Source of the DNA: Butyrivibrio sp. LC3010
Lineage (GTDB): Bacteria > Bacillota > Clostridia > Lachnospirales > Lachnospiraceae
NCBI RefSeq assembly: GCF_000424385.1
Contig: NZ_AUJU01000012.1
Coordinates: 1 to 64,000, forward strand
Length of the DNA: 64,000 nucleotides
Reading direction: 5' to 3'
The translations under genes and the position numbers were made by a program. The first letter of the stretch is position 1. Each line of letters begins with the position of its first letter. This document shows, in pieces, positions 30,828 to 52,802 of the stretch. A model generated the notes under the pieces. It was not told where the DNA came from, did no database searches, and was given only the letters and a program-made list of their open reading frames with translations.

Positions 30828-32336
30828 ATGAAGAAATATAAGCTTATAAAGCGCCGGGGGGTAGGAACAGCAATTGTACTGGCAACAGCGGCTCTTATAG
30901 GTGCAGGTTGCGGACAACCTACTTCAAAAAGCACTGCTGAAGCAAATGTAATTGAAAATTTAAACGCAACATCTGATGAATCAAATGACAATGACACAGA
31001 AGCTGCTGACAATACTTCGGATGAAGACACACTTAATATAGAAGAAACACAAAAAGTGGAAGAAGCTTCTGAGGAAACAGCGGATGATGCATCTGATGTA
31101 AATGCCGAAGAGAGCGAGGAGAATCAAGTGCCTGCACTAAAGGACAGTGTAGAAAAAGCAATGAATTGCAGGTTTGGGTGTGAGATCACCGGTCAGGAGC
31201 CTTGGGATTTAGGTGTGTGGGATATAGTAACAAAGCATTTCAACTGCGTGACCTTGGGAAATGAGTTAAAACCTGATTCACTATTTGGTTATAGCAATGC
31301 GGTTTGTCCCGGCACCGAAGAAACCGAATTAAACGGAGAGACAATAACGGTTCCGGTGCTGAATTTCAAAAATCCTGAAAAAATCCTGGATAAAATCCTG
31401 AAATGGAATGAAACACATCCGGATCAAGCGTTACAAGTCAGAGGACATGTGCTTTTATGGCATTCCCAGACACCTGAGTGGTTTTTCCATGAAGATTATG
31501 ACAAAGAAAAGCCATATGTTACCGCAGAAGTTATGGATAAGCGACAGGAGTGGTACATAAAATCAGTTCTTGAACACTTTGTGGGAGAGGATAGCAAGTA
31601 CAAAGATCTGTTTTATGGATGGGATGTGGTTAATGAAGCAATTTCAGATTCCACAGGAACCTACAGAACGGATACAGAGAGACCTGATGAAGAGCTTTCA
31701 CAGGATACTCACGGAGGAAACTCCAGTTGGTGGCATGTATATCAAAATGAAAGCTTCATTATAAATGCTTTTAAATATGCAAATAAGTATGCGCCGGAGA
31801 GCCTGGAACTGTATTACAACGATTACAACGAGTGTGATGCGAAAAAACGCGGCGGAATCATAGAACTTCTGAAAGCTGTTAAAGCAGAAGAAGGTGCTCC
31901 GGGAGAGGGAACAAGAATTACAGCGATGGGTATGCAGGGACACTACAGCGTGACCGGACCATCAAGTACAGAATTTGAAAATGCTATTAAAGCCTATGGC
32001 GAGGTTGTGGGTAACATACAGATTACAGAGTGGGATTTGGCAGCAAGTGATCAGTATGACAGCTCGGATCCTGAATCAGTAGAAGCAGAGTATGAAAAGG
32101 AAAGAAAGCAATATAACCTTCTATATTATGCACTTAAGTCAGCGCAGAATTCCGGAGCGGCAAAAGTTACAGGCATGACGTTCTGGGGGACGATAGATAA
32201 GTACTCATGGCTTCAGTTCCGTTCAAACGTTGGCGGAGGTAATAAATCAGGACAGGCACAATGTCCATTGCTTTTTGATAGTAAATATGAGCCTAAACCG
32301 TGTTTCTGGGTTTTTGCAGAAAATAATGCGGAATAA
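30828..32336 (+). CDS. GH10 endo-1,4-beta-xylanase, lipoprotein
   Basis: The 502-aa enzyme begins with a lipoprotein signal peptide (lipobox IGAGC, Cys28) and a 75-residue acidic linker, then a GH10 barrel from about residue 105. The acid/base is E270 in WDVVNEAIS and the nucleophile is E401 in ITEWDLA; the conserved HVLLWHSQTPEWFF is also present. It is thus tethered to the outer face of the cell and would cut xylan into oligosaccharides. GAGAGGAA precedes the ATG. The next gene begins within 20 bp, so this xylanase leads the long locus. Confidence 0.95.
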   Translation: MKKYKLIKRRGVGTAIVLATAALIGAGCGQPTSKSTAEANVIENLNATSDESNDNDTEAADNTSDEDTLNIEETQKVEEASEETADDASDVNAEESEENQVPALKDSVEKAMNCRFGCEITGQEPWDLGVWDIVTKHFNCVTLGNELKPDSLFGYSNAVCPGTEETELNGETITVPVLNFKNPEKILDKILKWNETHPDQALQVRGHVLLWHSQTPEWFFHEDYDKEKPYVTAEVMDKRQEWYIKSVLEHFVGEDSKYKDLFYGWDVVNEAISDSTGTYRTDTERPDEELSQDTHGGNSSWWHVYQNESFIINAFKYANKYAPESLELYYNDYNECDAKKRGGIIELLKAVKAEEGAPGEGTRITAMGMQGHYSVTGPSSTEFENAIKAYGEVVGNIQITEWDLAASDQYDSSDPESVEAEYEKERKQYNLLYYALKSAQNSGAAKVTGMTFWGTIDKYSWLQFRSNVGGGNKSGQAQCPLLFDSKYEPKPCFWVFAENNAE

Positions 32337-32354
32337 GAGATATTGGTGGATAAC

Positions 32355-35300
32355 ATGAAAAAGAATACCAAAACAATTTTATTAGTAGTTGTCGTTCTGG
32401 CAGTAATCGTTGGGGTAAGCGTACTACTGTCGATGAGAGGGATAGAAACCTTCCATGATAAATACGAAGGTGCTGACCTGACAAAAGACGTTGAAGGCAT
32501 GGAGAGGACAGGAACATATACCAATTACCTTGATGACCATGCAGATGCCGAAATACCGGCTGAGTCAATAGAAGTTGATGTTTTTGATAATCAGGCAGAG
32601 GGAGATGTTCATGAAGAGAGCAATCCTGAAGGAGATGTTGATAAAGCTCTTTATACCGGAACAGGATCAAAAGTGACCTGGAAGGTCAATGTTCCAAAAG
32701 CTGGATTTTATAATCTCTATTTAAATTATTATCTTCCTGAATCAAGAGGAGTTGCAGCTGAAAGATCAGTACTTATAAATGGAGAAACACCTTTTGAAGA
32801 TGCAAAGAACATCACTTTCACAAGAATCTGGGCAGATGGCGGAGATGTAAAGGTTGATAACCAGGGCAATGAAATAAGACCTACTCAGAAAGAGGTTTTT
32901 GACTGGCAGACAGCATATTTTAGAGATGACATGGGATTCATCACAGAGCCTTATCGCTTCTATTTTGAACAGGGTGATAATGATCTTGCTTTAGAAGCAG
33001 TAAATGAGCCAATGCTAATTGGAAGCCTCGAACTTAAGGCAATAGAATCCATAAAAACTTACGAAGAGTACTCAGCAGAGTATGCCGGAAAAGAAGGATC
33101 TGACGCTGCTAAAACATTTATAGAGACAGTTCAGGGCGAGGATTCAACATTAAGATCAGAATCTTCACTTTATGCAAAATATGACAGATCATCACCTACA
33201 ACTGTTCCGAATAGCGTAACACACACGGTTCTCAACTATGTAGGAGGAGATACCTGGAGAAGCTCAGGACAGTGGATTGAATGGAACTTCGATGTACCTG
33301 AGGATGGATTTTACAACATTATGATAAAGGGACGTCAGAACTATTCACGAGGAATAGTATCAAGCAGAAAAGTTCTGATTGACGGAGAAGTGCCTTTTCA
33401 GGAACTGAGTGTAGTATCCTTCCCCTTTGAGAATGAATGGAACAGTCTGACACTTGCAGATGATAATGGAACACCTTACAACATCTACCTCACCAAGGGA
33501 ACACATAAAATAAGACTTGAAGCTACACTTGGTGGTGTCGGTGGAATTCTTGAAGAACTTGAGGATTCAACCTTCAGACTTAACCAGATTTACAGAAGAA
33601 TCCTTGTTTATACAGGCGTTAATCCTGATATTTACAGAGATTATCATATTGAAAAGACATATCCTGAAATTATGGAAGCTATGGATCTTGAATCAAAGCG
33701 TCTTTACAGGATAGTTGATGAGATGACCGAGTACACAGGTCAGAAAGCTGATCAGATTGCATCAGCACAGACAGTAGCACAGCAGCTTGAGAGATTCGTA
33801 GAAAAACCTCAGAAAATAACTACTGAGTTTGTATCCTTTAAGGATAACATAACAGCACTTGGTACAGCTTCACTTAATATGAGTGATACAAAGCTTGATA
33901 TAGATTATCTGGTAGTATCCGGAACAGGAGTTAATCCTAAGAAGGATAAAGCTAATTTCTTTACCAAGTCAGCACATGAGATCAAATCTTTCGTAGCATC
34001 ATTCTTTGTAGACTATAACTCAGTCGGTGATGTATATGATGCAAACAGTAAAGATCAGGTCGTAAAGGTTTGGATACTTACAGGTCGTGATCAGGGTACA
34101 ATCCTTAAGTCAATGGTTGATGATACTTTCACACCTGAGTCCGGAGTTAAGGTTAACGTAGAAATCGTTGCACCTGATGCACTTCTTAATGCAGTACTTG
34201 CAGGAAGAGGACCGAATGTAGTTCTTTCAGTAGGCGCTGACCAGCCTGTAAACTATGCACTTCGTGGTGCAGCTGAGGATATTACTCAGTTCCCCGGCTG
34301 GGAAGATGTTATGGCACATTACTCCAAGAGTTCTTATGAACAGTATGGACTTGACGGACATATCTATGGTGTACCTGAGACACAGACTTTTAATGTTATG
34401 TTCTATAGAAAGGACGTACTTGAAGAACTTGGACTTGAGCCTCCGCAGACATGGCAGGAGCTCATAGAGATGCTTCCTACAATTCAGGGACACAACCTTT
34501 CAGTAGGTATTCCTACTGCAGCAGGTAGTAGCGGAGCTGCAACAGCTTCAACATCAATAATGTCAAATGCTCCTGATCTTTCAATGTACTTCTCGCTTCT
34601 GTATCAGAATGGCGGTGACATGTACAACGAAAACGGAACAAAGACAACTGTTAATACAGAAGCCGGTGTTAAAGCATTTGATGAATATGTAAGATACTTT
34701 AACGATTACAATCTACCTACAATTTACGATGTAGTAAGCAGATTCAGATCCGGTGAGATGCCTATAGCAGTTGCTCCTTATTCAACATACAACACACTTA
34801 TGGTATCAGCTCCTGAGATTAGAGGATTATGGGACTTCACACTGATACCCGGAACCGAGAAATCTGACGGATCAATAGACAGATCAGACTTCATCACAGG
34901 TAGTGCGACAATGATGATAAGGACAAAGAATGATGAACTTCGAAACAATGCATGGGAGTTCATGAAGTGGTGGGCAGAACCTGATACACAGGTAAGATTC
35001 GGTCGAGAAATCGAGGCTCTCCTTGGATCATCAGCAAGATATGCTACAGCAAACAGAGATGCATTCAGAAATCTGTCCTGGAGCACAAATGATATAGAAG
35101 TACTTGATGCACAATGGGATCAGACAGTTGGAATCAGAGAGGTTCCCGGCGGATACTTCACCGGACGCCATATTGCAAACGCAATTCGTAAGGTTATAAA
35201 CGATAAGATTGATTCCCGAGAGGCAATCATCGATTACTCAATCTTCATAGATGAAGAAATTACGAAGAAGAGGAAAGAGTTTGGAATGCCGCTTGAATAA
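32355..35300 (+). CDS. TM-anchored fusion: two carbohydrate-binding-like repeats plus solute-binding domain
   Basis: About 981 residues from the ATG at 32355 (GGTGG five bases upstream; a TTG at 32343 is less likely). One N-terminal TM helix (residues 7-28) has no lipobox Cys. Two related beta-rich modules follow: in the first VNVPKAGFYNLYLNYY and SVLINGETPF, in the second FDVPEDGFYNIMIKGR and KVLIDGEVPF. A helical linker (about 430-500) leads to an extracellular solute-binding domain over the last 400 residues (VNVEIVAPDALLNAVLAGRGPN, then GIPTAAGSS and MKWWAEPDTQ). The next two genes are its permeases. A binding protein with its own glycan-binding modules is unusual. Confidence 0.85.
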   Translation: MKKNTKTILLVVVVLAVIVGVSVLLSMRGIETFHDKYEGADLTKDVEGMERTGTYTNYLDDHADAEIPAESIEVDVFDNQAEGDVHEESNPEGDVDKALYTGTGSKVTWKVNVPKAGFYNLYLNYYLPESRGVAAERSVLINGETPFEDAKNITFTRIWADGGDVKVDNQGNEIRPTQKEVFDWQTAYFRDDMGFITEPYRFYFEQGDNDLALEAVNEPMLIGSLELKAIESIKTYEEYSAEYAGKEGSDAAKTFIETVQGEDSTLRSESSLYAKYDRSSPTTVPNSVTHTVLNYVGGDTWRSSGQWIEWNFDVPEDGFYNIMIKGRQNYSRGIVSSRKVLIDGEVPFQELSVVSFPFENEWNSLTLADDNGTPYNIYLTKGTHKIRLEATLGGVGGILEELEDSTFRLNQIYRRILVYTGVNPDIYRDYHIEKTYPEIMEAMDLESKRLYRIVDEMTEYTGQKADQIASAQTVAQQLERFVEKPQKITTEFVSFKDNITALGTASLNMSDTKLDIDYLVVSGTGVNPKKDKANFFTKSAHEIKSFVASFFVDYNSVGDVYDANSKDQVVKVWILTGRDQGTILKSMVDDTFTPESGVKVNVEIVAPDALLNAVLAGRGPNVVLSVGADQPVNYALRGAAEDITQFPGWEDVMAHYSKSSYEQYGLDGHIYGVPETQTFNVMFYRKDVLEELGLEPPQTWQELIEMLPTIQGHNLSVGIPTAAGSSGAATASTSIMSNAPDLSMYFSLLYQNGGDMYNENGTKTTVNTEAGVKAFDEYVRYFNDYNLPTIYDVVSRFRSGEMPIAVAPYSTYNTLMVSAPEIRGLWDFTLIPGTEKSDGSIDRSDFITGSATMMIRTKNDELRNNAWEFMKWWAEPDTQVRFGREIEALLGSSARYATANRDAFRNLSWSTNDIEVLDAQWDQTVGIREVPGGYFTGRHIANAIRKVINDKIDSREAIIDYSIFIDEEITKKRKEFGMPLE

Positions 35301-35347
35301 CAGCAGGCATTGGCACAGCATCACGAGAAATTTTTTAGGAGAAAAAA

Positions 35348-36286
35348 ATGAAAGATTATCTTCAGAAATATATCACCTTGCGCAAACACAATGCGAAGGT
35401 GGCATATAAAAAGGCTAAAAATCGAAAAATGTGCTATCTCTTTCTTGCACCCTACGCGATTTTGTTTACCATGTTTTACATTTTTCCGGTTTTGGCATCC
35501 ATATACTTTAGTTTTACGTATTACAACGTATTGGAAGCGCCGCGATTTATCGGACTGCAGAATTACATCAGCCTGATTCTGCAGGATGATATCTTCCTGG
35601 TCGGTGTTAAAAACACTTTGATAATTGCGATAGTAACAGGACCCCTTGGTTACATAATGTCCTTCCTTTTTGCCTGGCTGATAAATGAATTACCAAGATG
35701 GGTCAGAAGTATTGCGGTCATGGTGTTTTATGCACCGTCAATCGCGGGAAACTGCTTCGTTATCTTCTCTGTACTGTTCAGAGGTGATGCATATGGTCAT
35801 GTAAATGCACTTTTAATGAAGTGGGGAATAATTGATACACCTATCCTTTGGCTTATAAATCCTCAGTATATGCTTCCTATTTGTATGCTGGTTATCTTAT
35901 GGATGAGCCTTGGATCCGGATTCCTTTCCTTCGTAGCCGGTCTTCAGGGCGTTGATAAATCACAGTTCGAAGCCGGATACATGGATGGCGTAAAGAACCG
36001 CTGGCAGGAGCTGTGGTTCATAACACTTCCCAACATGAAGCCGATGCTTATGTTCGGTGCTGTTATGTCAATAACACAGGCATTTAACGTAGCTGATGTA
36101 ACTATGCAGCTTTGCGGATTCCCCAGTACGGATTACGCAGCAAGAACAATCGTAGCACACCTTATTGACTACGGTTCAATGAGATATGAAATGGGATACG
36201 CTTGTGCAATAGCAACTATCCTGTTCCTGATGATGATTTTATGCAACAAAGCAATACAAAGTCTCTTGAGGAGAGTGGGAACCTGA
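35348..36286 (+). CDS. Sugar ABC permease, MalF type
   Basis: The 312-aa protein has six membrane helices and the EAA motif EAGYMDGVKNRWQELWFITLP. An N-terminal basic segment of about 30 residues precedes the first helix. TTAGGAGA lies before the ATG. It starts 47 bp after the fusion binding protein and its stop is directly followed by the MalG-type gene. Confidence 0.92.
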   Translation: MKDYLQKYITLRKHNAKVAYKKAKNRKMCYLFLAPYAILFTMFYIFPVLASIYFSFTYYNVLEAPRFIGLQNYISLILQDDIFLVGVKNTLIIAIVTGPLGYIMSFLFAWLINELPRWVRSIAVMVFYAPSIAGNCFVIFSVLFRGDAYGHVNALLMKWGIIDTPILWLINPQYMLPICMLVILWMSLGSGFLSFVAGLQGVDKSQFEAGYMDGVKNRWQELWFITLPNMKPMLMFGAVMSITQAFNVADVTMQLCGFPSTDYAARTIVAHLIDYGSMRYEMGYACAIATILFLMMILCNKAIQSLLRRVGT

Positions 36287-36287
36287 C

Positions 36288-37205
36288 ATGAGTAAAGAAA
36301 ATACCAAGAAAAAAATTGAAAAAGCAGAAAAAGAACAGGTTTACCGTAAGAAGCTGATTAAAAAGAGGAAACCTAACAGATCAATATGGGGTGACTTTTT
36401 CCTGTATCTGTTCCTGATCCTGGTGGCTGTTATCATGGCATTTCCGATTGTGTATGCAGTAAGTAGTGCCTTGAAGCCTTTGGATGAACTGTTTAAGTTC
36501 CCACCTACGATTTTCCCTAAGCATCCTACAATGGATAACTTCTCAGATTTGTTTGTAACAATGGGTAAATCATGGGTAACATTCTCAAGATATCTGTTTA
36601 ATACAGTATTTATCACATTCGTAGGAACTTTTGGACATCTGATCATTTCCTCTATGGCGGCATTCGTACTTGCTAAGTATGAGTTCCCGGGAAATCAGAC
36701 ATTCTTCAAAATCGTTACGGTGGCAATGATGTTCACGGGATATGTTACAGCAATCCCGAACTATATCATATTAAATAAACTGGGATGGATCGATACCTAC
36801 TGGGCAATAATAATCCCGGCATTCGCAGCACCTATGGGACTTTTCCTTATGAAACAGTTCATGGAAGGTCTTCCGACTTCACTTATTGAGGCAGCTAAGA
36901 TCGACGGTGCAAACGAATGGAAAGTATTTGCGGGAATAGTAATGCCGAACGTTAAACCCGCATGGATGACACTTATCATCTTCTCGGTACAAAGACTCTG
37001 GAATGACAGAGCAGCAACCTTTATCTATTCAGAAGAGAAAAAGACACTTGTATTTGCACTTCAGCAGATTCAGAGTGGTGGTATTGCAAGAACAGGTCAG
37101 GGTGCAGCCGTACTGGTTGTAGTAATGATCGTTCCGATTATCATCTTTGTATTCTCTCAGAGTCAGATTCTTGAGACAATGGCTAGTTCAGGTCTTAAGG
37201 ATTGA
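36288..37205 (+). CDS. Sugar ABC permease, MalG type
   Basis: The 305-aa protein has a highly charged N-terminal 30 residues, six membrane helices and the EAA motif EAAKIDGANEWKVFAGIVMP. It pairs with the preceding permease; the ATG follows its stop by two bases. No ATPase gene is present in the locus. Confidence 0.92.
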   Translation: MSKENTKKKIEKAEKEQVYRKKLIKKRKPNRSIWGDFFLYLFLILVAVIMAFPIVYAVSSALKPLDELFKFPPTIFPKHPTMDNFSDLFVTMGKSWVTFSRYLFNTVFITFVGTFGHLIISSMAAFVLAKYEFPGNQTFFKIVTVAMMFTGYVTAIPNYIILNKLGWIDTYWAIIIPAFAAPMGLFLMKQFMEGLPTSLIEAAKIDGANEWKVFAGIVMPNVKPAWMTLIIFSVQRLWNDRAATFIYSEEKKTLVFALQQIQSGGIARTGQGAAVLVVVMIVPIIIFVFSQSQILETMASSGLKD

Positions 37206-37235
37206 TGAAATACCACATTTGGAAAGGTGTTAGTT

Positions 37236-38759
37236 ATGCATACTATGAAAAAAATCGTAAAAGGAGCTGCTGCAATATTTGCGGGAATGATGATAGTTAC
37301 TGCCACTCCTTTAACGGCATACGCAGGTGAATATGGATACACCTATAATTACGATTACTGGGGAGATGTTCAGGAAAGTCCCGATTTCTACAATGTTTGT
37401 AAGGTGTTTACCGGTTCAGATTTAGGACTGGATACAAATTTGAATAATCCTGATGGAATATTCACATACGGGGACCTGATATATCTTTGTGACAGTGGAA
37501 ATAACAGAATTCTGGAGTTAAAGAGAGATTCTGCTGAGAAACTTGAAGTTGTCAGAATAATTGATTCATTTGAGGGAAATACAGATGTAAAGACATTTTC
37601 AAATCCCACAGATGTAGCAGTTTCTGAAGAAGGGGATTTCTACATTGCAGATCAGGGAAATGCAAGAGTATTAAAGCTTGATAAGGACTTAAATTACGTT
37701 ATGGAGTTTAACAAGCCCGTCGACAATACTTTGGATCCCAGCCTTGTATTTCAGCCTAAAAAGCTTGCAATCGACACCGCAGGGCGTGTGTATTGCATAG
37801 CTACAGGAATTAACAAAGGTCTTATAAAGTATGAGAGTGATGGAACATTTTCAGGATTTGTAGGAGCTACCAAGGTAAAATTCGACTGGACAGATTATAT
37901 CTGGAAAAAGTTCGCTTCTCAGGAACAGAGAGCAAAGATGGAATCCTTCGTTCCTACAGAGTATGAAAATATTTACATGGATTATGAAGGTTTCATATAT
38001 GCAACAATGGCTCTTAATGAGGATAAGGCATCCGATACTGATTGTGCAGTAAGAAAGCTTAACCTCTTAGGTAATGACATTCTCGTCAACAACGGAGAAT
38101 GGGGAGTAATGGGTGATCTCTACTGGGGATCCGGCGGTGGTTACGAAGGTCCTTCAATCTTCACTGACGTAACTGTCATGGACAACGACATTTATGTCTG
38201 CCTTGACAGAAACAGAGGAAGATGCTTCGGATACGACGATCAGGGAAATATCGTGTTCTGCTTTGGTGGAAACGGTAACATGAACGGTTATTTCAGAAGA
38301 CCTACAGCCATTGACCACATTGGTAAAGACCTTTATGTAGTAGATGCCCTTGATAATTCCATTACAGTATATGTTCCTACAGAGTTTGGACAGACAGTAT
38401 TTAACGCTATTGATCAGTTTGATGAAGGCCAGTATGAAGAATCCGGTGCATCCTGGGAAAGCGTAATGAAGCAGAACGGCAACTATGATCTTGCTTATAT
38501 TGGAATAGGAAGAGCACTCCTTAGACAGAAACAGTATAAGGAAGCAATGAGATATTTTGAGCTTAAGTATGATGAGGATAACTACTCAAAAGCTTATAAG
38601 CAGTATCGAAAGATATGGGTTGAAGATCATATTGTAGTGATTGTTTTGGTTCTTCTTGCACTATTCCTTATACCAATGACAATTGGAAGAGTTAAGAAAA
38701 TCAGACATGAGATTGACACTGCAGATATTTTCATGAATACACAGGACGGAGAAAAATAA
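37236..38759 (+). CDS. Secreted NHL-propeller protein with TPR-like segment and C-terminal TM helix
   Basis: About 507 residues from the ATG at 37236 (GGAAAGG upstream). A signal peptide ends near TAYAGEYG. Residues about 60-385 are repeated NHL-type blades (GIFTYGDLIYLCDSGNNRILEL, VAVSEEGDFYIADQGNARVLKL, AIDHIGKDLYVVDALDNSITVY), forming an extracellular beta propeller. Residues about 390-460 look like two TPR helices (QFDEGQYEESGASWESV, ALLRQKQYKEAMRYFE). A TM helix lies at about 467-488, with a short basic tail inside. Enzyme motifs are absent, so a scaffold or ligand-binding role is inferred from its place between permease pairs. Confidence 0.8.
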   Translation: MHTMKKIVKGAAAIFAGMMIVTATPLTAYAGEYGYTYNYDYWGDVQESPDFYNVCKVFTGSDLGLDTNLNNPDGIFTYGDLIYLCDSGNNRILELKRDSAEKLEVVRIIDSFEGNTDVKTFSNPTDVAVSEEGDFYIADQGNARVLKLDKDLNYVMEFNKPVDNTLDPSLVFQPKKLAIDTAGRVYCIATGINKGLIKYESDGTFSGFVGATKVKFDWTDYIWKKFASQEQRAKMESFVPTEYENIYMDYEGFIYATMALNEDKASDTDCAVRKLNLLGNDILVNNGEWGVMGDLYWGSGGGYEGPSIFTDVTVMDNDIYVCLDRNRGRCFGYDDQGNIVFCFGGNGNMNGYFRRPTAIDHIGKDLYVVDALDNSITVYVPTEFGQTVFNAIDQFDEGQYEESGASWESVMKQNGNYDLAYIGIGRALLRQKQYKEAMRYFELKYDEDNYSKAYKQYRKIWVEDHIVVIVLVLLALFLIPMTIGRVKKIRHEIDTADIFMNTQDGEK

Positions 38760-39409
38760 TGGCAGCTATCACAAAAGAGAAATATGATCGTTATATTGAC
38801 TCGCTGAAGTTTGCATTATATTGCATCTCTCATCCGCTAGACGGATTCTGGGATTTAACCCATGAAAAGAGAGGAACATATGCGGCAGCCAATACAATAC
38901 TAATCGCAACTGTTCTTATAAGAATACTTAAACTAAGATATACAAGTTTTATTTTCATGACAGTTTATTGGGAAGACCTGAACATCTTCCTGTATGTAGC
39001 AAGTATCCTGTTCCCTTTAACTCTTTGGGTATTAGGAAACTGGGGACTTACAACACTGTTCGATGGAAAGGGAAGGCTTGGACAGGTATATATGGCAACC
39101 TGCTATGCACTTACGCCATATCCGCTGATCCAGTTCCCGCTGATGATTTTCAGTAATTTCGTTACTGTAGATGAAGCTGAATTCTATGCAATGGTAAGTA
39201 CCATATCGCTTGTATGGGCAGCACTTCTGGTTATAGCAGCAATGGGACAGATTCATGAATATGCAGCAGGAAAAAACCTTTTATTCACAGTGGCAACACT
39301 TTTTGCAATGCTTGTTATGATCTTCATACTGATGATTTTCTTCAGTATGATATCTCAGGGAGTTTCCTATTTTATATCTCTGGGTAAGGAATTATTGTTC
39401 CGACTATAG
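38759..39409 (+). CDS. Yip1-domain integral membrane protein
   Basis: The 216-aa protein has about five hydrophobic helices and the Yip1-like opening YISHPLDGFWDLTHEKRGT, a pattern found in bacterial Yip1 family proteins. The biochemical role of these is unknown. The ATG shares one base with the stop of the NHL gene, so the two are translationally coupled and the products probably sit together in the membrane. Confidence 0.75.
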   Translation: MAAITKEKYDRYIDSLKFALYCISHPLDGFWDLTHEKRGTYAAANTILIATVLIRILKLRYTSFIFMTVYWEDLNIFLYVASILFPLTLWVLGNWGLTTLFDGKGRLGQVYMATCYALTPYPLIQFPLMIFSNFVTVDEAEFYAMVSTISLVWAALLVIAAMGQIHEYAAGKNLLFTVATLFAMLVMIFILMIFFSMISQGVSYFISLGKELLFRL

Positions 39410-39430
39410 GAATTACGGATGGGAGCAGAC

Positions 39431-42007: not shown

Positions 42008-42021
42008 GAGGAAATGGTTTT

Positions 42022-44135: not shown

Positions 44136-45680
44136 ATGAAAAGGGCATTAACCAAAAAAGTTACAGCTGCTATTACACTTGCAGCAATGACAATGAGCGC
44201 AGTTGGTTGTGGCGCTGCTTCTAATGGAACAGACGCAAATACAGCAACTGAGACAGAGACAGCTGCTTCTACAGAAGAAACAGCAGCAGAAGAGACAACT
44301 GATGCAGCAGAAGAAACAGCTGACGCTGAGGAAGCTGATGCAGAGGAAACTGAAGAAGCTGATGCTGAAGAAGCTTCTGAGGGTGGAGATCTCTATGAAG
44401 TAAAGACAGATGCTGATGGTAATCCTATCGATCTCGGCGGTATGGAAATCATTATCCGTGACTGGTGGTCAGGCGACCCGACTGAACCCGCTAACGATTA
44501 TGAGGAAGCTCTTCAGGAGTACAGAGATTGGGCTCAGGAAACATACAACTTCACAATCAAACAGCAGGCTATTTCTGACTGGGGTTCAACACCTGCTGAT
44601 TTCGTAGATTACGCTACAACAGGCGGTGATGAGAACTACCTTTGGGTCCTTCGTGCTGATCCGGCTATCACATCTGCTATGGCAAACGGTCTTATGTATG
44701 ATCTTTCTACACTTGATTGCCTTGACTTCAGCAAAGAAAAGTTCCAGAGAAATCTTCTCCATGAACAGTTCTCTAAGGACGGCAAGATTTATGCTATGTA
44801 TGCAGGCTTCTCAGAGCCCAGAACAGGTGTATACTTCAACAAGAGAATTCTTACTGATGCAGGTATCGACCCTGAGACAATTTATGATATGCAGGCTGAT
44901 GGCTCATGGACATGGGATAAGTTCGAAGAACTTCTTTCCAAGGTTCAGAGAGATACAGACAACGATGGTGTTATAGACATTTACGGTATGACACTTAACG
45001 AAGGTGTTATGACAACACAGGCTATCTTCTCAAACGGTGGAGACCTTGTTGGTAAGGATGCTAGCGGTAAGTACACATATGACCTTGAGAATCCTGAGAC
45101 TCTTGAGGCTCTTAACTGGACAGTAGATATGTTCACAAAGTATGATGCAGAAGTTGCTAACCCTGAGGGCGCTGAGTGGGATTACTACAAAGAGCAGTTC
45201 CTTAACGGTCAGGCAGCATTCCTTGTAGAGGATGAGTACGCAGGATGCCCTGGTAACTTCCTTGAGGATATGAATGATGAAGTTGGTTTCGTAATGTTCC
45301 CTAAGGGACCTAGTGGTAAGGATTACATCAACGTTTGGTCAAACAACCCGGTTGCAATTCCTGCTTGCTATGATGAAGAGAAGGCTTGGAAGCTTGCATT
45401 TGCTTGGGATCTTTGGACAAACCAGCCTGAAGGCTACGAGGATTACAACGGAAACATTTCAACAGCACGTAACGGTATCTTCGATTCAAGATCTGTAGAT
45501 GAGACAATCACAATGATGACTCAGCCTGAGCACGGTACAGTTGCTTACCACGGCATGATTCCTAACATGGATGTCGGAGCAGACTTCATTTGGAACATCA
45601 CACCTGGTTGTGTTGTATCTGAGCAGGTAGAAGCTATCGCTGATACATGGAAGTCATACGTTGACGAAGCAAATAAATAA
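44136..45680 (+). CDS. Sugar ABC importer binding lipoprotein
   Basis: The 514-aa protein has a lipoprotein signal peptide with lipobox SAVGC and then a strongly acidic Glu/Ala/Thr linker to about residue 85, much like the one at 19417. The solute-binding domain follows (GMEIIIRDWWSGDPTEPAN, GVYFNKRILTDAGIDPETIYD, GSWTWDKFEELL). AAGGAGG lies seven bases before the ATG. It is the apparent binding protein for the second permease pair. The terminator at 45713 closes the unit. Confidence 0.92.
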   Translation: MKRALTKKVTAAITLAAMTMSAVGCGAASNGTDANTATETETAASTEETAAEETTDAAEETADAEEADAEETEEADAEEASEGGDLYEVKTDADGNPIDLGGMEIIIRDWWSGDPTEPANDYEEALQEYRDWAQETYNFTIKQQAISDWGSTPADFVDYATTGGDENYLWVLRADPAITSAMANGLMYDLSTLDCLDFSKEKFQRNLLHEQFSKDGKIYAMYAGFSEPRTGVYFNKRILTDAGIDPETIYDMQADGSWTWDKFEELLSKVQRDTDNDGVIDIYGMTLNEGVMTTQAIFSNGGDLVGKDASGKYTYDLENPETLEALNWTVDMFTKYDAEVANPEGAEWDYYKEQFLNGQAAFLVEDEYAGCPGNFLEDMNDEVGFVMFPKGPSGKDYINVWSNNPVAIPACYDEEKAWKLAFAWDLWTNQPEGYEDYNGNISTARNGIFDSRSVDETITMMTQPEHGTVAYHGMIPNMDVGADFIWNITPGCVVSEQVEAIADTWKSYVDEANK

Positions 45681-45712
45681 TATCTGCTTAACTCGATAAG
45701 TGGAGAATCTGA

Positions 45713-45741: not shown

Positions 45742-45857
45742 ATAAGCTTAATCAGTTTTTTAAAGCTAAATCATGTGCCACTCATTTCAGAGCGTCCATT
45801 CAGACGTTCATGGAGTCACAAATTAAGGAATTTTTTTATAAATAGGAGTAAAGTACC

Positions 45858-46814
45858 ATGAGTAACAAAGTTAAATTTCATCTGCCGGGACTTCGCTACA
45901 ACTATCCTTTAAATATGTTTTGGATAAGTCTGATGGAGCAGCACCCTGAATATTTTAGAGAAGGCGTGGAAATCGCATCATTTTTCGGAGCATTCCCACT
46001 TGCACTGTGGAATGGAGGAAGATTCTTAGGAAATGATCAATGTGATGCAGGCTTTGTTAAAAATGTCGTTAAAAGCATAAATGCAAAAGGAATACCGATA
46101 AGATACACATTTACTAATCCGCTGTTAACAGAAGAGGATCTGGACGATCCTTTTTGCAACTTCTGTATGGAGGTTGCTGATAACGGAATGAATGAAGTTC
46201 TTGTTTTTTCTGAAGTTCTGGAAAAATATCTCAGGGAAAAATATCCTTCATATCATTTCAACAGTACCACATGTAAGGAAATCCGTGATGTTGAAGAACT
46301 GAATAAAGAGATGGAAAAGGACTACAAATATGTGGTTCTTGATTACAACCTGAATAATAAATGGGATTTATTGGAGAAGGTTCAGCACAAAGAAAAGCTG
46401 GAGGTTCTGATAAACGCCTGCTGCGTTCCCGATTGTAAGCGCAGAGGAGACCATTATAAAAATATAGCCATAAATCAGAGAACAACCCTTGAGAACAGAA
46501 AGCTTCCCAAGGATAAACAAAAGCCCATAAAGCCCTGGACATGCGAATACGGAGATAAAAACTGTATTTATACTATCCAGGAATACTCTACATTTGTTTC
46601 ACCGGAGATGATCTGGGAGAAATATGTACCTATGGGAATAAATAACTTTAAGATTGAAGGAAGAACAGGTAATCTTTTCTCACTTATAGAAACCTATAGT
46701 TTTTATATGCTCAAGCCTGAAAAGGTTGGAGAAGCCAGGTTACTGCTTCTTAGAAATCTTGAGAGTTCAGGAATAATAACGGTTAATAAGCCAAGACCGG
46801 GTAGATGGCCGTGA
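45858..46814 (+). CDS. Uncharacterised protein, U32-peptidase-like TIM barrel with Cys motifs
   Basis: The 318-aa protein is not in a family I can name with certainty. It has features of the U32 group (UbiU/RlhA-like): an alternating beta-alpha pattern, a central INACCVPDCKRRGDHY with two or three Cys, a second Cys pair in CEYGDKNC, and the late NNFKIEGRTGN strand. In the U32 group four Cys bind a 4Fe-4S cluster. AGGAGTAAA precedes the ATG. It opens the enzyme half of the xylan locus, which is an unexpected place for such a protein. Function unknown. Confidence 0.55.
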   Translation: MSNKVKFHLPGLRYNYPLNMFWISLMEQHPEYFREGVEIASFFGAFPLALWNGGRFLGNDQCDAGFVKNVVKSINAKGIPIRYTFTNPLLTEEDLDDPFCNFCMEVADNGMNEVLVFSEVLEKYLREKYPSYHFNSTTCKEIRDVEELNKEMEKDYKYVVLDYNLNNKWDLLEKVQHKEKLEVLINACCVPDCKRRGDHYKNIAINQRTTLENRKLPKDKQKPIKPWTCEYGDKNCIYTIQEYSTFVSPEMIWEKYVPMGINNFKIEGRTGNLFSLIETYSFYMLKPEKVGEARLLLLRNLESSGIITVNKPRPGRWP

Positions 46815-46862
46815 TGTGCTACTTTCGCATGAAAACAAAACCATACAAATTGAAAAGAGGAC

Positions 46863-48578
46863 ATGATGAGTATTGAAGAGAGAAAGGGCCCTGTAGCCCC
46901 AAAAGACCCAACTAAAAAGAGACCATATTTCTATATTATGCAGGATAAGCAGATATTTGCAGCACCTCAGCCTGATGGAAGAGGAATTCAGTTCATATTT
47001 GAGGATATGGGCAGACTTCCTGATTCTGCAAAGCTTCAGGGCAATGTTACAGATGAAGAAATTCTCAACCTGCTTCCTACAGCAGAAGGCTTTAGAAAGC
47101 TGGTGCACAGCATAGGTGTCTGTGTAACAGAAGAGTCAGGCAAAGAGGAAGTAAACTTTGTTTTGCAGATGTATGGACAAAACCAGGGAGATCCTGCAAC
47201 TATCGTGAGCAAAAGATTTCTTGCGGATGGATCAGAGCAGATTATAGACCTTGCTGAGATCGACTGGTGCGATACTGACAAGGTTGTTGGTCAGATCAGA
47301 TTTGAATTCGATAAAGCACGCGTTCAGGCTATTGCAGATGTTTGCCTCTACTTAAATGATGGCTTTGAAGCACCTGAGCAGATAACAGATAGTGCAGTGG
47401 ATTTTGCCTCAGATGCCTATAAAGAGATGATAGAGAGATCTGTTATGCAAAAGGGCAATCTCGAAAGATTGCACAAGGTTACAGAGAAGGCGAAGAATGG
47501 TGAAGATGTAACTCTTTCCTTTATCGGAGGCTCAATTACCCAGGGCGCAGGTGCAATCCCGATTCATGAAAAGAGCTATGCACGTATTTATGCAGATGCT
47601 TTTGAGGAAAAGTACGCTAATGGCGGAAAAGTAAACCTCATAAAGGCCGGAGTTGGCGGTACTCCTTCAGAGCTTGGAATGATTCGTTTTGAGAGAGATA
47701 TTCTCAGAGATGGTAAAGAAAAGCCGGATCTTATCGTTATCGAGTTTGCTGTTAATGATGAAGGTGATGAGACCAAGGGCGTATGCTATGAGAGTCTTGT
47801 AAGAAAATGTCTTGCACTTCCCTGGAAGCCGGCAGTAGTACTGCTTTTTGCGGTATTTTCCTACGACTGGAACCTTCAGGACAGACTTGGTCCTGTAGGT
47901 GAGCGCTATGACCTTCCAATGGTTAGTGTACTTGATGCTGTATCACCTCAATTTACCTGCAAGCCCGGCGAAGGCAGAGTTATCTCAAAGAAGCAGTTTT
48001 TCTATGATATATATCATCCCAGCAACCTTGGACACCAGGTTATGTGCGACTGCCTCATGAAGATGACTGCCGAAGCTGATGCTCAGACAGAATTTGAAAA
48101 AGAGGACGATCTTCTTGGAAGAACTCCTGCCATCGGTGCTGACTTCGAAAAAGTTTATCTGCTTGATAGAAAAGATATAAGCAGTGCAACTATTGAAGAA
48201 GGTTCATTTACAGGAACCGATAATATACTGCAGATGGTTGAGATGGACAGCGAAGTAGTTCCTGTAGCACAGTTTCCCAATAACTGGCACTATGATGGAG
48301 AAAGTGACGATCCGAAGCCTTTCTGCATGAAAATCAGCTGCACAAAGCTATTGCTTGTTATGAAGGATTCAGGAGAAAATATTTTCGGAACAGCAGAAGT
48401 ATATGTTGACGGAAGAAAAGTGCTTGATGCAGACCCGCTTGTTAACGGATGGACTCACTGCAATCCACTGATAATACTCAACGGAGCAGAAGTAGCCATG
48501 CATGAAGTAGAAATCCGTATGGCAAAAGGTCACGAGCACAAAAAGTTCACTATTTTAGGATTTGGCGTTGTTTTATAA
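46863..48578 (+). CDS. SGNH-type carbohydrate esterase with N-terminal accessory domain
   Basis: The 571-aa protein has an N-terminal beta-rich domain (about 1-190), then an SGNH hydrolase with SFIGGSITQGAG (nucleophile Ser), AGVGGTPSE (Gly block), EFAVNDEG (Asn block) and DIYHPSNLGH (Asp, His). About 120 more residues form a C-terminal sandwich. The GGSIT variant of the GDS block is known from carbohydrate esterases. No signal peptide, so it probably removes acetyl groups from imported xylo-oligosaccharides (inference). AGAGG lies just before two tandem ATGs (46863 and 46866). Confidence 0.8.
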   Translation: MMSIEERKGPVAPKDPTKKRPYFYIMQDKQIFAAPQPDGRGIQFIFEDMGRLPDSAKLQGNVTDEEILNLLPTAEGFRKLVHSIGVCVTEESGKEEVNFVLQMYGQNQGDPATIVSKRFLADGSEQIIDLAEIDWCDTDKVVGQIRFEFDKARVQAIADVCLYLNDGFEAPEQITDSAVDFASDAYKEMIERSVMQKGNLERLHKVTEKAKNGEDVTLSFIGGSITQGAGAIPIHEKSYARIYADAFEEKYANGGKVNLIKAGVGGTPSELGMIRFERDILRDGKEKPDLIVIEFAVNDEGDETKGVCYESLVRKCLALPWKPAVVLLFAVFSYDWNLQDRLGPVGERYDLPMVSVLDAVSPQFTCKPGEGRVISKKQFFYDIYHPSNLGHQVMCDCLMKMTAEADAQTEFEKEDDLLGRTPAIGADFEKVYLLDRKDISSATIEEGSFTGTDNILQMVEMDSEVVPVAQFPNNWHYDGESDDPKPFCMKISCTKLLLVMKDSGENIFGTAEVYVDGRKVLDADPLVNGWTHCNPLIILNGAEVAMHEVEIRMAKGHEHKKFTILGFGVVL

Positions 48579-48605
48579 AAGGCATAGATAGTTTTGGAGA
48601 ACAAG

Positions 48606-50600
48606 ATGAATGATAAAAACTGGAGCAAACTATGGCTCGATTATGATAAAAAGCTAAGTAATGAACAGTCTGAAGATTCCTTTAGTGTAGCATTTGATGG
48701 ATTTTCTGAGGATCACCGTATTATAAAAAGTGCAAAGAACGAACTTACAGAGGTATTTTCAAAGCTTTTTAAAGGCGGGTATACAACGGAAATTGAAAAT
48801 GCCGGAAAATCAGTCTGCATTAAAAAAACAGACGAAATAAAAAATGAAGGATATCGAATATCCGCAGATGATTCAAAGCTGACAATTGAAGCATCTGATG
48901 AAAATGGCGTATTATATGGTGCCTTTCATGTAATAAAAAGTCTTTTGAGAGGAACCGGCTTTGCTGATATAAAGGCTGATGAAGTGCCTTCTAATCCTCT
49001 TAGAATGATGAATCACTGGGATAACATGGATGGAAGTATCGAGCGCGGTTATTCCGGAAGATCATTTTTCTTCGAAAATGATAATTTTTATATAAATGAC
49101 AGAACACGTGATTATGCAAGGATGATGGCAAGTATAGGCATAAATGGCATTGTTATCAATAACGTCAATGTCAAAAATGCCGCTTCTTACCTTATTACTG
49201 AGAGATATTTTGATAAGGTAAGTGAACTGTCAGAGCTGTTTGCAGATTATGGTATAAAGCTCTACTTATCTCTTAATTTTGCATCACCGATAGAACTTGG
49301 AGGACTGGAAGTATGTGACCCTCTTGATGAAAATGTAATCAGCTGGTGGGATAAGAAATTCAAGGAAGTGTATGAAAATGTTCCACTTCTTGGAGGCTTC
49401 CTTGTAAAGGCTGATTCTGAGGGAAGACCGGGACCGTTTACCTATGGCAGAAATCAGGCAGATGGTGCAAATATGCTGGCAAAAGCCATTGCTCCCTATA
49501 ATGGAATCATTATCTGGAGATGTTTTGTATATAACTGCACTCAGGACTGGAGAGATTACAAAACAGACAGAGCAAGAGCCGGATATGATTACTTTAAGGG
49601 ACTTGATGGTGAATTTCTGGATAATGTTATACTTCAGATAAAGAACGGGCCTATGGATTTCCAGATAAGAGAACCTGTTTCACCGCTTTTAGGAGGTCTT
49701 ACAAAGACCAATCAGATGCTGGAGGTACAGATTGCGCAGGAATATACAGGTCATCAGATAGATTTATGTTATTTGATGCCCATGTTCAAGGAAGTACTGG
49801 ACTTCCATACCCATTGCAAGAGCGAAGGCGACACCGTTGCTGATGTTGTAAGCGGAAGAGCTTTAAATAACAAAAATGCCGGAATGGCTGCAGTAATAAA
49901 TACCGGTGATGACGCGAACTGGACAGGTAATTATCTGGCTGCCGCAAACCTCTATGGATTTGGAAGACTGGCATATAATACAGAACTGTCTTCAGAAGAT
50001 ATTGCGAGAGAGTGGATACAGCTTAGCTTTGATTTAAGCAAAGAAAATGAAGAAAAACTGGTATCCATGCTCCTTAGATCAAGAGAAATTTATGAAAAGT
50101 ACACAAGTCCTCTTGGAATAGGCTGGATGGTAACACCTCATGAGCACTACGGACCAAGTGTTGACGGTTATGAATATTCCAGATGGGGAACCTATCATAG
50201 AGCAGATCATCTTGGACTTGGTGTTGACAGAACAGATAAGGGTACCGGCTATGCTCAGCAGTACTATCCTGAAAATGCTGATATGTACAATGATTCTGAT
50301 ACCTGTCCGGAAGAACTGTTACTGTTTTTCCATCATATAGCCTACGACAGGAAGTTAAAAGACGGAAGAACACTGATACAGTATATCTATGACAGCCACT
50401 TCGAAGGAGAGGCACAGGCAGAGGAATTGTACGAAAACTGGAAGAGCATGGAAAAGGAAATTCCTTCTGAGGTTTTTGCGCTTGTATGTCACAGATTTGA
50501 AATGCAGATAGCAAATGCAAAGGAATGGAGAGATCAGGTAAACTCCTATTTTTACAGAAAAAGCGGAATACCTGATGAAAAGGGAAGAGATATATTTTAA
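48606..50600 (+). CDS. GH67 alpha-glucuronidase
   Basis: About 664 residues from the ATG at 48606, with TTGGAG six bases upstream; a TTG at 48594 is less likely. The protein follows GH67 throughout: NPLRMMNHWDNMDGSIERGYSG, then GFLVKADSEGRPGPFTYGRNQADGANML in the catalytic barrel and GIGWMVTPHEHYGPSVDGYEYSRWGTYH near the end. GH67 removes 4-O-methyl-glucuronic acid from the non-reducing end of aldouronic acids, the products of GH10 on glucuronoxylan. No signal peptide. It sits directly before the GH3 gene. Confidence 0.95.
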   Translation: MNDKNWSKLWLDYDKKLSNEQSEDSFSVAFDGFSEDHRIIKSAKNELTEVFSKLFKGGYTTEIENAGKSVCIKKTDEIKNEGYRISADDSKLTIEASDENGVLYGAFHVIKSLLRGTGFADIKADEVPSNPLRMMNHWDNMDGSIERGYSGRSFFFENDNFYINDRTRDYARMMASIGINGIVINNVNVKNAASYLITERYFDKVSELSELFADYGIKLYLSLNFASPIELGGLEVCDPLDENVISWWDKKFKEVYENVPLLGGFLVKADSEGRPGPFTYGRNQADGANMLAKAIAPYNGIIIWRCFVYNCTQDWRDYKTDRARAGYDYFKGLDGEFLDNVILQIKNGPMDFQIREPVSPLLGGLTKTNQMLEVQIAQEYTGHQIDLCYLMPMFKEVLDFHTHCKSEGDTVADVVSGRALNNKNAGMAAVINTGDDANWTGNYLAAANLYGFGRLAYNTELSSEDIAREWIQLSFDLSKENEEKLVSMLLRSREIYEKYTSPLGIGWMVTPHEHYGPSVDGYEYSRWGTYHRADHLGLGVDRTDKGTGYAQQYYPENADMYNDSDTCPEELLLFFHHIAYDRKLKDGRTLIQYIYDSHFEGEAQAEELYENWKSMEKEIPSEVFALVCHRFEMQIANAKEWRDQVNSYFYRKSGIPDEKGRDIF

Positions 50601-50612
50601 GAAAGGTAAAGT

Positions 50613-52802
50613 ATGAACAGACAAGAAGCGAGAGAAAGAGCCAAAGAATTAGTTAGTAAGATGACTGTTGAGGAAAAGGCCTCGCAGCTTAAATTTGATG
50701 CACCTGCAATAGACAGACTGGGAATACCCGCGTACAACTGGTGGAATGAAGCACTCCACGGCGTTGCAAGAGCAGGCACCGCTACAATGTTTCCGCAGGC
50801 AATAGGACTTGCCGCAGCTTTTGACGAAGAACTGATGGAATGCATTGGTGAAATCATTGCTGTAGAAGGCCGTGCAAAGTATAACGAGCAGAGTAAACGT
50901 GAGGACAGAGATATATACAAAGGACTTACTTTCTGGGCTCCAAATGTAAACATATTCCGCGATCCCAGATGGGGAAGAGGACATGAGACCTATGGAGAAG
51001 ATCCTTTCCTTACAAGCCGCATGGCTGTGCCTTTTATAAAGGGTATGCAGGGTGACGGTGAATATCTTAAGGCTGCAGCCTGCGCAAAGCATTTTGCTGT
51101 ACATTCAGGTCCTGAGGGTGAGCGCCATCACTTTAATGCCATTGCTTCCAAGAAAGACCTGGAGGAGACTTATCTTCCAGCTTTTGAAGCATGCGTTAAG
51201 GAAGCAGATGTTGAGGCAGTTATGGGTGCTTATAACAGAACAAATGATGAACCCTGCTGTGCCAACGAGCCTCTTATGAATGGATATCTTCGCGGAAAAT
51301 GGGGATTCCAGGGACACTATGTATCTGATTGCTGGGCTGTTAAGGATTTCCATGAAAATCATCATGTTACAGGTGCACCTGAGGAATCAGTTAAGCTGGC
51401 TCTTGAGACAGGCTGCGATGTAAACTGCGGCTGCACATATCAGAAGATAATGAATGCTTATCGCGCAGGAATGATAGATGAAAGCGTGCTCACAACTTCA
51501 TGTGAGAGACTGTTTACCACAAGATTCCTTCTTGGAATGTTTGATGAGACAGAATATGATAAGATTCCTTTCACCGTGGTTGAATGTAAGGACCACATTA
51601 ACGTGGCTCACAAAGCTGCAGCTGAGAGTATTGTACTTCTTAAAAACGATGGACTTTTACCTTTAAAGAAGGAAGGCATTAACACAATCGGTGTTATCGG
51701 ACCTAATGCAGATTCCAGATCAGCACTGGTTGGTAACTATCACGGAACATCTTCAAGATATGTGACAGTACTTGAGGCTATTGAGGATTATGTAGGTGAG
51801 GATGTAAGAGTATTGTATTCTGAGGGCTGTGATCTTTGGAAAGACAATATCAGTGGTCTTGCCGATCCCAATAAGCCGGACAGAATGTCAGAGGCACTTA
51901 CGGTAGTTGATTATTCTGATGTTGTTGTACTTGTAGTCGGACTTGATGAAACTCTTGAAGGTGAAGAGGGTGATACAGGTAACCAGTTCGCATCAGGCGA
52001 TAAGATTGATTTACAACTTCCGCTTCCTCAGAGACAGCTTATGCATCAGGTTCTCGAAGCAGGAAAGAAGGTTGTTGTAATAAATATGTCAGGAAGTGCT
52101 ATAGACCTTTCTGAAGCAGAGAAAAAGGCGGGTGCAATCCTGCAGACCTGGTATCCGGGCGCAAGAGGAGGAGTAGAGGTAGCAAAAATACTCTTTGGCG
52201 AGCTTTCTCCTTCAGGTAAGCTCCCTGTGACTTTTTATAACACATCAAAAGACCTTCCGGATTTCAGGGATTATTCCATGAAAAACCGCACCTACAGATA
52301 TTTTGAGGGCGAAGTATTGTATCCATTTGGATATGGTCTTACCTATGGTGACTGTGAGGTTAAGAGCGTAAGTGTTAACGAGGCTACAGGCGCTGAGTAT
52401 GGCTACAGCAGTAAGAATGAAGAACAGGAAAGAAAAACAGTTGATTCATTCAACAGAAAAAATGGAAATGCATTCAGCGGTGTGGATGTAAAAGTAACAG
52501 TAGCAAATAATGGAACAGTAGCAACTGATGATGTGGTACAGCTCTACATTAAGGATACCGGATTTGATAAGGCTATTCCTAATCCCTGCCTTTGCGGTTT
52601 TAAGAGAGTACACCTTGAAGCAGGCGAGGAGAAGGAAATCACTGTTCATGTAGCATCAAGAGCATTTACATCTGTCGATGATGATGGAAACAGAGAGATT
52701 TTCTCAGATACATTCGTACTTTATGCCGGAACCTGCCAGCCGGATAGCCGTTCAGAGCAGTTAACTGGTCATAAATGTGTATCACAGGATATCAGATTGT
52801 GA
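50613..52802 (+). CDS. GH3 beta-xylosidase
   Basis: The 729-aa protein is a GH3 enzyme with both core domains and a C-terminal fibronectin-like domain. Seen: YNWWNEALHGVARAG, RDPRWGRGHETYGEDPFL, AKHFAVHSGPEGERHHFN and the nucleophile D239 in HYVSDCWAV. The WNEALHG and SDCWA wording is typical of beta-xylosidases in this family. No signal peptide, so it would finish xylo-oligosaccharides in the cytoplasm. AAAGG lies seven bases before the ATG. A terminator follows at 52829. Confidence 0.93.
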   Translation: MNRQEARERAKELVSKMTVEEKASQLKFDAPAIDRLGIPAYNWWNEALHGVARAGTATMFPQAIGLAAAFDEELMECIGEIIAVEGRAKYNEQSKREDRDIYKGLTFWAPNVNIFRDPRWGRGHETYGEDPFLTSRMAVPFIKGMQGDGEYLKAAACAKHFAVHSGPEGERHHFNAIASKKDLEETYLPAFEACVKEADVEAVMGAYNRTNDEPCCANEPLMNGYLRGKWGFQGHYVSDCWAVKDFHENHHVTGAPEESVKLALETGCDVNCGCTYQKIMNAYRAGMIDESVLTTSCERLFTTRFLLGMFDETEYDKIPFTVVECKDHINVAHKAAAESIVLLKNDGLLPLKKEGINTIGVIGPNADSRSALVGNYHGTSSRYVTVLEAIEDYVGEDVRVLYSEGCDLWKDNISGLADPNKPDRMSEALTVVDYSDVVVLVVGLDETLEGEEGDTGNQFASGDKIDLQLPLPQRQLMHQVLEAGKKVVVINMSGSAIDLSEAEKKAGAILQTWYPGARGGVEVAKILFGELSPSGKLPVTFYNTSKDLPDFRDYSMKNRTYRYFEGEVLYPFGYGLTYGDCEVKSVSVNEATGAEYGYSSKNEEQERKTVDSFNRKNGNAFSGVDVKVTVANNGTVATDDVVQLYIKDTGFDKAIPNPCLCGFKRVHLEAGEEKEITVHVASRAFTSVDDDGNREIFSDTFVLYAGTCQPDSRSEQLTGHKCVSQDIRL

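Follow-up and report, generated by a model that had tools for sequence, protein, structure and literature searches.

A conserved double-importer cassette with NHL, Yip1, and DUF5696 proteins in a xylan locus of Butyrivibrio

Why should genes for an NHL-repeat protein, a Yip1-family membrane protein, and a DUF5696 protein stand between two ATP-binding cassette (ABC) permease pairs in a xylan locus? We asked this of a stretch of 64,000 nucleotides (the window; contig NZ_AUJU01000012.1, positions 1 to 64,000) from the 4.6-Mb genome of Butyrivibrio sp. LC3010. Positions 30828-52802 of its plus strand carry, by Pfam, genes for a glycoside hydrolase family 10 (GH10) xylanase, the cassette studied here, an unknown open reading frame (ORF), a GDSL esterase, a GH67 enzyme, and a GH3 enzyme. 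The cassette has the order S-a-b-N-Y-D-p-q-s, in which S is an anchored solute-binding protein (SBP), a and b are a permease pair, N is a protein with an NHL propeller, TPR repeats, and a transmembrane (TM) helix, Y is the Yip1 protein, D is the DUF5696 protein, p and q are a second permease pair, and s is a lipoprotein SBP. An earlier note on this DNA had read these genes as a surface complex that captures and trims decorated xylo-oligosaccharides before import; ORF calls and Pfam confirmed that the genes it named are all present, on one strand and in the order it gave. To our knowledge, no glycan-uptake function is known for the NHL and Yip1 families, and a literature search that combined Yip1 or NHL with solute-binding, xylan, or xylanase returned nothing on Yip1 in glycan uptake. 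Is the cassette more than a chance arrangement, and what could N, Y, and D do beside two importers?

Of 200 genomes of the window's family, 56 had DUF5696 above the Pfam cut-off, a count that includes weak GH129-like matches. At E ≤1e-20, it was present in 41 of the 398 genomes sampled from the phylum and in 70 of 293 from the class, in five of the latter by shorter, weaker matches only. We compared gene order in a main sample of 101 loci around strong D matches, a subset of all matches made up of the window, 60 loci of the family, and 40 of the phylum. The gene immediately upstream of D was Y in 54 loci, a fused N-Y gene in 42, and N in 3, and it lay on the opposite strand in 2; the gene immediately downstream was a permease in 96 of 101. 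The earlier note had proposed this neighborhood survey beforehand, and the three families do co-occur, with N or Y directly upstream of D in 99 of 101 loci. It had also pointed to translational overlaps, and these are real: in the window, N and Y share one base (TAATG), D and p overlap by four bases (ATGA), and p and q share 8 or 9 bases if translation of q begins at the junction ATG, which is probably its start and lies ∼57 bases inside the called ORF. Across the main sample, 40 of the 51 pairs of separate N and Y genes overlapped, as did 52 of the 96 D-p pairs.

The same parts recurred in a second sample, made up of 80 loci from named records (Paenibacillus, Cohnella, Gracilibacillus, Bacillus, Lederbergia, Ruminococcus, Ruminiclostridium, Lachnospiraceae, Oscillospiraceae, and others): N in 76, S in 74, Y in 73, and D followed by a permease pair in 75. 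All four of S, N, Y, and D were present in 61 of the 67 loci longer than 20 kb. The two samples overlap, since at least three of the 80 loci (L183, L187, and L229) are on the same contigs as L128, L093, and L033. Some part was missing from 12 loci of the second sample, 6 of them shorter than 20 kb, and in several of the others an opposite-strand ORF from the simple gene calling used occupies the expected place. By hydropathy, an N-terminal anchor was found in 70 of 82 S proteins and 91 of 101 D proteins. The recurrence of the order in 101 and 80 loci indicates that the gene arrangement is more than chance.

Judged by sequence comparison, the cassette is one conserved, jointly inherited unit, which supports the tightly coupled set of the earlier note; gene order, N-Y fusions, co-occurrence of Yip1 and S with D, permease clades, and matched distances all agree on this. 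When the four permeases were placed in a tree with 27 others from the window's genome, each of a, b, p, and q formed a single clade (SH-aLRT support of 100, 99, 100, and 99, respectively); the tree drew on 20 picked loci, with 17 or 18 rows per permease, and on the 27 of 49 other loci that gave a usable ORF. Distances between D proteins tracked those of N, S, and the four permeases (rho of 0.81-0.92 over 19 to 37 same-genome cassette pairs, which are not independent of one another). Because the pairs were taken inside one genome, this match does not come from species history. Among chosen genomes of the family, Yip1 was found in 26 of 26 with D versus 1 of 23 without D, where the match was below the cut-off, and 47 of the 49 Yip1 matches in the 26 D-bearing genomes adjoin a D gene. 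In genome G145, three Yip1 matches each have a DUF5696 gene alongside; the Yip1 matches at L171 and L172 and the weak match at L173 stand in other gene contexts. All 10 of the D-bearing genomes chosen for a search with S had it in full length, versus 0 of 23 family genomes without D, and 8 of those 10 genomes belong to three other family groups. On the D tree, built by a quick method, N and Y switched between fused and separate seven times, and at least five of these changes are forced by well-supported branches; the D tree does not tell the direction (fusion or split), 8 of the 101 loci had no clear call, and some fused genes are cut at contig ends (L109 and L121).

Some observations point the other way. 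Yip1 was found in 2 of 3 genomes of other families that lack D. Loci were compared for 7 of the 8 genomes from the three other family groups, and in 5 of these 7 genomes the stretch covered, in some cases ending at a contig end, had no S beside N-Y-D. S-a-b stands apart from N-Y-D in some lineages, which speaks against one fixed complex.

As an observation in its own right, G145 holds at least nine DUF5696 cassettes (L037, L048, L052, L079-L081, and L168-L170), with N and Y fused in some and separate in others.

Does D cut glycans, as the proposed trimming would require? The best structural matches of its AlphaFold2 model (pLDDT of 90.7) were, over nearly the whole length, NagBb of GH129 (5wzq; VIA Z of 28.5 over 570 residues, rmsd of 4.1) and the GH129-like DagB (5opq; VIA Z of 28.4 over 581 residues, rmsd of 4.0). 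Foldseek matched the model to 5opq with an E value of 2.6e-34, and a D sequence profile found the same enzymes (E value of 4.2e-14 to 5opq). D shares its whole-length fold and a profile match with GH129 and GH129-like enzymes (NagBb 5wzn, DagB 5opq); unlike GH129 enzymes, it has an N-terminal membrane anchor and adjoins importers. The second catalytic residue of NagBb, which we take to be Glu478, is on the barrel strand next to that of the nucleophile. The nucleophile position is occupied by Asp435 in NagBb and Asp486 in DagB (PMC5698469). With hhalign, this position mapped to Asp655 of the window's D, where 44 of 101 D proteins have Asp or Glu, and the Glu position mapped to Met697/Gly698, so that the window's protein has no acid there; in the D family, Asp or Glu occurs at column 696 in 36 proteins, at column 697 in 15, and at column 698 in 1. 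Thus, unlike in NagBb, the Asp/Glu pair at NagBb-type positions is not conserved in D. The residues lost differ between D lineages, and the D of genome G361 (L114), which matches Anaerocellum bescii (see below), has neither. By contrast, all five GH129-like proteins compared from related genomes kept an Asp and a Glu with the expected spacing, the Glu being assumed from this spacing to be the second catalytic residue, as in NagBb. These proteins (L132, L134, L135, L136, and L137) are about 620-730 amino acids (aa) long; they represent 5 of 6 such loci, L133 having been left out because its ORF was in the wrong frame, and L135 is below the Pfam cut-off.

These data suggest that D is probably a pseudo-glycosidase of GH129 fold that likely retains a binding pocket. 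Hydrolysis by D, and with it the trimming in the earlier note, has the fold in its favor and is unsupported by the residues at the NagBb catalytic positions. These positions make D less likely to be an ordinary active GH129 enzyme. Could D instead have an unusual active site and work as an exo-glycosidase that removes side groups at the membrane ahead of import? Several observations pull this way and count against our reading of D. The fold extends over about 570-580 residues, and Asp655 is kept in the window. An acid at 655 together with one at 696 or 697 was found in 17 of 101 D proteins, or 27 of 101 by looser windows. Asp or Glu is also highly conserved elsewhere in D (position 350 in 97 of 101 proteins, 759 in 96, 723 in 83, and 663 in 73), and the profile alignment places position 350 opposite Lys208 of DagB, an active-site residue (PMC5698469). 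DagB is itself active with only one of the two NagBb catalytic residues, using other acids (PMC5698469); its activity means that loss at these positions is no proof of lost activity. The label "GH129" is, moreover, used for the A. bescii gene. Set against the unconserved nucleophile and Glu columns, the loss of different residues in different lineages, and the kept pair in all five GH129-like relatives, an active D seems unlikely to us. The name DUF5696 appeared in no paper found by our literature search, and a search for GH129 as a pseudoenzyme was likewise without result.

We then consider the importer parts. BPD_transp_1 was found by Pfam in all four permeases, and a strict EAA-like motif pattern matched 75 of 75 a, 60 of 75 b, 59 of 92 p, and 79 of 92 q proteins; an insertion special to p was sought, and only short stretches were found. 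SBP_bac_1 is present in both S and s of the window and in 44 of 44 S proteins (the window and 43 family loci). The two glycan-binding-like repeats that the earlier note saw in S correspond to CBM_35 above the cut-off (31.5 bits; cut-off of 28) and to CBM_6, which matched weakly (18.6 bits; cut-off of 28.9), beside SBP_bac_8/SBP_bac_1. The cassette has no ATPase gene of its own, and one UgpC-type match above the curated cut-off (501.9 bits) lies elsewhere in the genome. In having an SBP and two permeases, the cassette resembles CUT1 importers that work with a shared MsmK/MsmX ATPase, and the CUT1 importers of A. bescii likewise have no ATPase of their own (PMC8579813). It differs from them in placing two permease pairs and two SBPs in one unit together with N, Y, and D, and in an S that is TM anchored and carries carbohydrate-binding module (CBM)-like domains.

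What might N and Y contribute? A model of a fused N-Y homologue (pLDDT of 87.4) has propeller strands at 39-353, TPR-like helices, a long helix that may be the TM anchor, and a helix bundle for Yip1. Foldseek matched the propeller to the NHL domain 6d69 (E value of 1.2e-15), and the N sequence profile matched NHL and TPR structures, including the NHL domain of the kinase PknD. N shares the propeller with NHL-repeat proteins and differs from them by its TPR, its TM helix, and its frequent fusion to Y; Y passes the Pfam cut-off for Yip1. The N-Y gene fusion is the sole direct hint, read from sequence, of contact among cassette parts. The cassette of L083 adjoins a further NHL-matching protein, a very large one of 1346 aa.

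One potential explanation for the whole set is that the cassette serves glycan uptake at the outer face of the cell membrane, as a platform comprising two CUT1-type importers and three dedicated accessory proteins. We hold this reading tentatively, at a little less than an even chance. S would hold long or decorated chains near the membrane via its CBM-like domains, and D, fixed in place as a lectin-like receptor, would hold chain ends or present them and leave them uncut. N-Y would act as a membrane scaffold tying D to the importers. Products would enter by either or both of the permease pairs, and a shared MsmK/UgpC-type ATPase, encoded outside the cassette, would supply the energy. In the window, the exported GH10 enzyme would cut xylan, and the GH67, GH3, GH43, and GDSL enzymes, which have no export signals, would finish the imported decorated oligosaccharides. 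This would be similar to the Xua system of R. cellulolyticum, in which decorated xylan chains are imported and finished by cytoplasmic enzymes (PMC9675976). A physical complex of the cassette parts is something that we infer, and the match of CBM_35 to only 16 of 44 S proteins counts against the platform reading. A bolder version, in which both permease pairs, both SBPs, a non-cutting glycosidase-fold receptor, and the N-Y scaffold make up a single composite importer for large or decorated chains, is doubtful.

Is such a cassette already known? The earlier note knew of no described function for it. A version from A. bescii (Caldicellulosiruptor) is nevertheless in print, described as two ABC transporters, "X," and "GH129" (PMC8579813); the part of the claim that stands is that roles for N, Y, and D are undescribed in the literature searched. 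The xylan degradation locus (XDL) of A. bescii has the order xloEFG-X-GH129-axoFGE followed by xylanases (PMC8579813). On xylan versus cellobiose, its proximal genes are up about 10- to 100-fold and its distal genes 4- to 9-fold, and growth on xylan is impaired when the gene for the shared ATPase MsmK is deleted (PMC8579813). Control of the XDL is attributed to two transcription factors, XynR and AraR (PMC8579813), and XynR binds the XDL operator with a Kd of 161 nM (PMC12285236). When 8 stretches of this kind were searched with up to 3 mismatches allowed, the only match to the published 20-base XynR operator was an exact, single site in genome G361; it lies ∼150 bases ahead of S and is covered by both L114 and L177, which overlap. 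G361 (L114, L177, and L180) has the order S-a-b-N/Y-D-p-q-s beside xylanases, as in the window. Because the exact operator, the gene order, and the downstream xylanases agree, G361 matches A. bescii, or a very near relative, at the level of sequence. One cassette member is already inside a known xylan-regulated locus. The window and the XDL have the same gene order and part types, with S as the counterpart of XloE and s as that of AxoE; they differ in that N and Y are one gene (X) in A. bescii, other xylanases follow there, and the regulators are XynR and AraR rather than the AraC-family gene beside the window's run. In the available parts of PMC8579813 and PMC12285236, X and GH129 are not treated as importer parts.

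In C. saccharolyticus, the transporters of the corresponding locus (Csac_2412 and Csac_2417-2419) respond to biomass type and are up in some comparisons; on cellulose-reduced tissue, most xylan-responsive genes, the locus ABC transporters included, were repressed (PMC5658599). The Csac genes appear to be the same genes as those of the cassette. The parts available of PMC12838199 and PMC6344614 contain nothing on the cassette, and PMC4510573 and PMC12710961 are likewise without relevant terms. The importer parts are known in kind; as a unit, the conserved double importer together with N, Y, and a probable pseudo-glycosidase is mostly undescribed in the literature searched.

Another explanation is that the genes are co-regulated only: two independent importers, each with its own oligosaccharides, and accessory proteins unrelated to them, without joint assembly. 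In A. bescii, S-a-b and s-p-q are named as two transporters (PMC8579813), and S-a-b can stand apart from N-Y-D. However, S and D co-occur even when apart, N and Y are often fused, Yip1 is nearly absent from family genomes without D, and the distances of all parts are matched within genomes; we consider this explanation improbable. We give similarly little weight to N, Y, and D as a membrane sensor that reports extracellular glycan or gates the importers instead of a capture scaffold: PknD, whose NHL domain is among the PDB matches of N, has a sensor role, but Pfam found no kinase, response-regulator, or DNA-binding domains in N, Y, and D, and the conserved neighbors are permeases. A solute-binding protein, CuaD, has been given a signaling role (PMC10384115), whereas the A. 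bescii locus has XynR and AraR assigned to it.

If the cassette is a glycan-uptake platform, which glycans would it take up? The earlier note had assigned it to glucuronoxylan, which fits the xylan enzymes beside it in the window and is too narrow elsewhere, where GH130, GH26, GH43, arabinofuranosidase, melibiase, GH42, and GH106 were found. Among 97 scanned of 243 picked neighbor ORFs (25 of 76 families being shown), Pfam found GH130 in 7, GH43 in 6, an arabinofuranosidase C-terminal domain in 5, GH3 in 4, and melibiase in 3, with GH10, GH26, GH5, GH42, and GH106 in 2 each. Since the neighboring enzymes vary in this way, the xylan-only reading was rejected, and the cassette would be a general uptake platform whose substrate is set by its neighbors, decorated xylan in this case.

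The features of the window's run are given in Table 1. GH10 ends 6 bases upstream of S, and it also precedes S in the same-genus locus L036; the lipobox pattern had no match in the GH10 protein. S more likely starts at an ATG 12 bases inside its called ORF. The s gene is flanked by gaps of 160 and 177 bases. The unknown ORF had no match in Pfam and NCBIfam searches, and its relatives, among the loci compared, occur only beside the cassettes L041, L044, and L050. The GH3 enzyme is a putative beta-xylosidase, and the AraC-family gene is a candidate local regulator. Hydropathy revealed no export signal in two GH43 proteins tested. Promoter-like sites were fewer than in shuffles (31 versus 46.5) and terminator-like sites about equal (9 versus 10.9); since neither exceeded the shuffles, we claim no transcript limits. 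Elsewhere in the window, carboxylesterase-type and GH43 domains are joined in a single, likely bifunctional protein (23185-25953, minus strand). An upstream glycan locus (15557-17989, minus strand, and 18307-22931, plus strand) carries GH94, a LacI-family regulator, and another permease pair, and it includes a 494-aa protein without a clear family match (19417-20901).

Table 1. Features of the cassette and its accessory genes in the window
Feature	Position	Strand	Evidence
AraC-family regulator, divergent from run	29351..30331	-	HTH_18, AraC_binding
GH10 xylanase, accessory	30828..32336	+	Glyco_hydro_10, 198.8 bits; hydrophobic N terminus, exported by eye
S: N-terminal TM anchor, CBM35/CBM6-like, and SBP domain	32343..35300	+	Pfam, hydropathy
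a: ABC permease 1	35348..36286	+	BPD_transp_1
b: ABC permease 2	36288..37205	+	BPD_transp_1
N: NHL propeller, TPR, one TM helix	37227..38759	+	NHL, 41.1 bits; TPR below cut-off; export signal by eye
Y: Yip1-family membrane protein	38759..39409	+	Pfam Yip1, 40.1 bits (cut-off of 28.6)
D: TM-anchored DUF5696 protein, GH129 fold, probable pseudo-glycosidase	39419..42007	+	DUF5696, 648.5 bits
p: ABC permease 3	42004..42936	+	BPD_transp_1; 4-base overlap with D
q: ABC permease 4	42872..43975	+	BPD_transp_1
s: lipoprotein SBP	44136..45680	+	SBP_bac_1, 49.4 bits; lipobox pattern match
Unknown ORF, 318 aa, outside cassette	45858..46814	+	Same run, between s and GDSL esterase
GDSL esterase, accessory	46863..48578	+	Lipase_GDSL_2; no export signal by hydropathy
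GH67 alpha-glucuronidase, accessory	48594..50600	+	Glyco_hydro_67M, 504.6 bits; no export signal by hydropathy
GH3 enzyme, accessory	50613..52802	+	Glyco_hydro_3 and 3_C; no export signal by hydropathy

Uptake of long decorated oligosaccharides in Gram-positive bacteria is usually described as the work of one SBP and one permease pair. PMC9675976 describes it so. A double-importer cassette that is kept in many fiber-degrading Gram-positive bacteria and is common by the DUF5696 counts suggests that a widespread part of the uptake machinery has been overlooked. For three families that have had no role in a glycan-uptake setting, the cassette also suggests a concrete one to look for, and a "GH129" label on a DUF5696 gene may lead one to expect an activity that is absent. 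Should the single composite importer prove true, it would be a Gram-positive counterpart, by function and not by descent, of the outer-membrane glycan-capture complexes of Bacteroidota.

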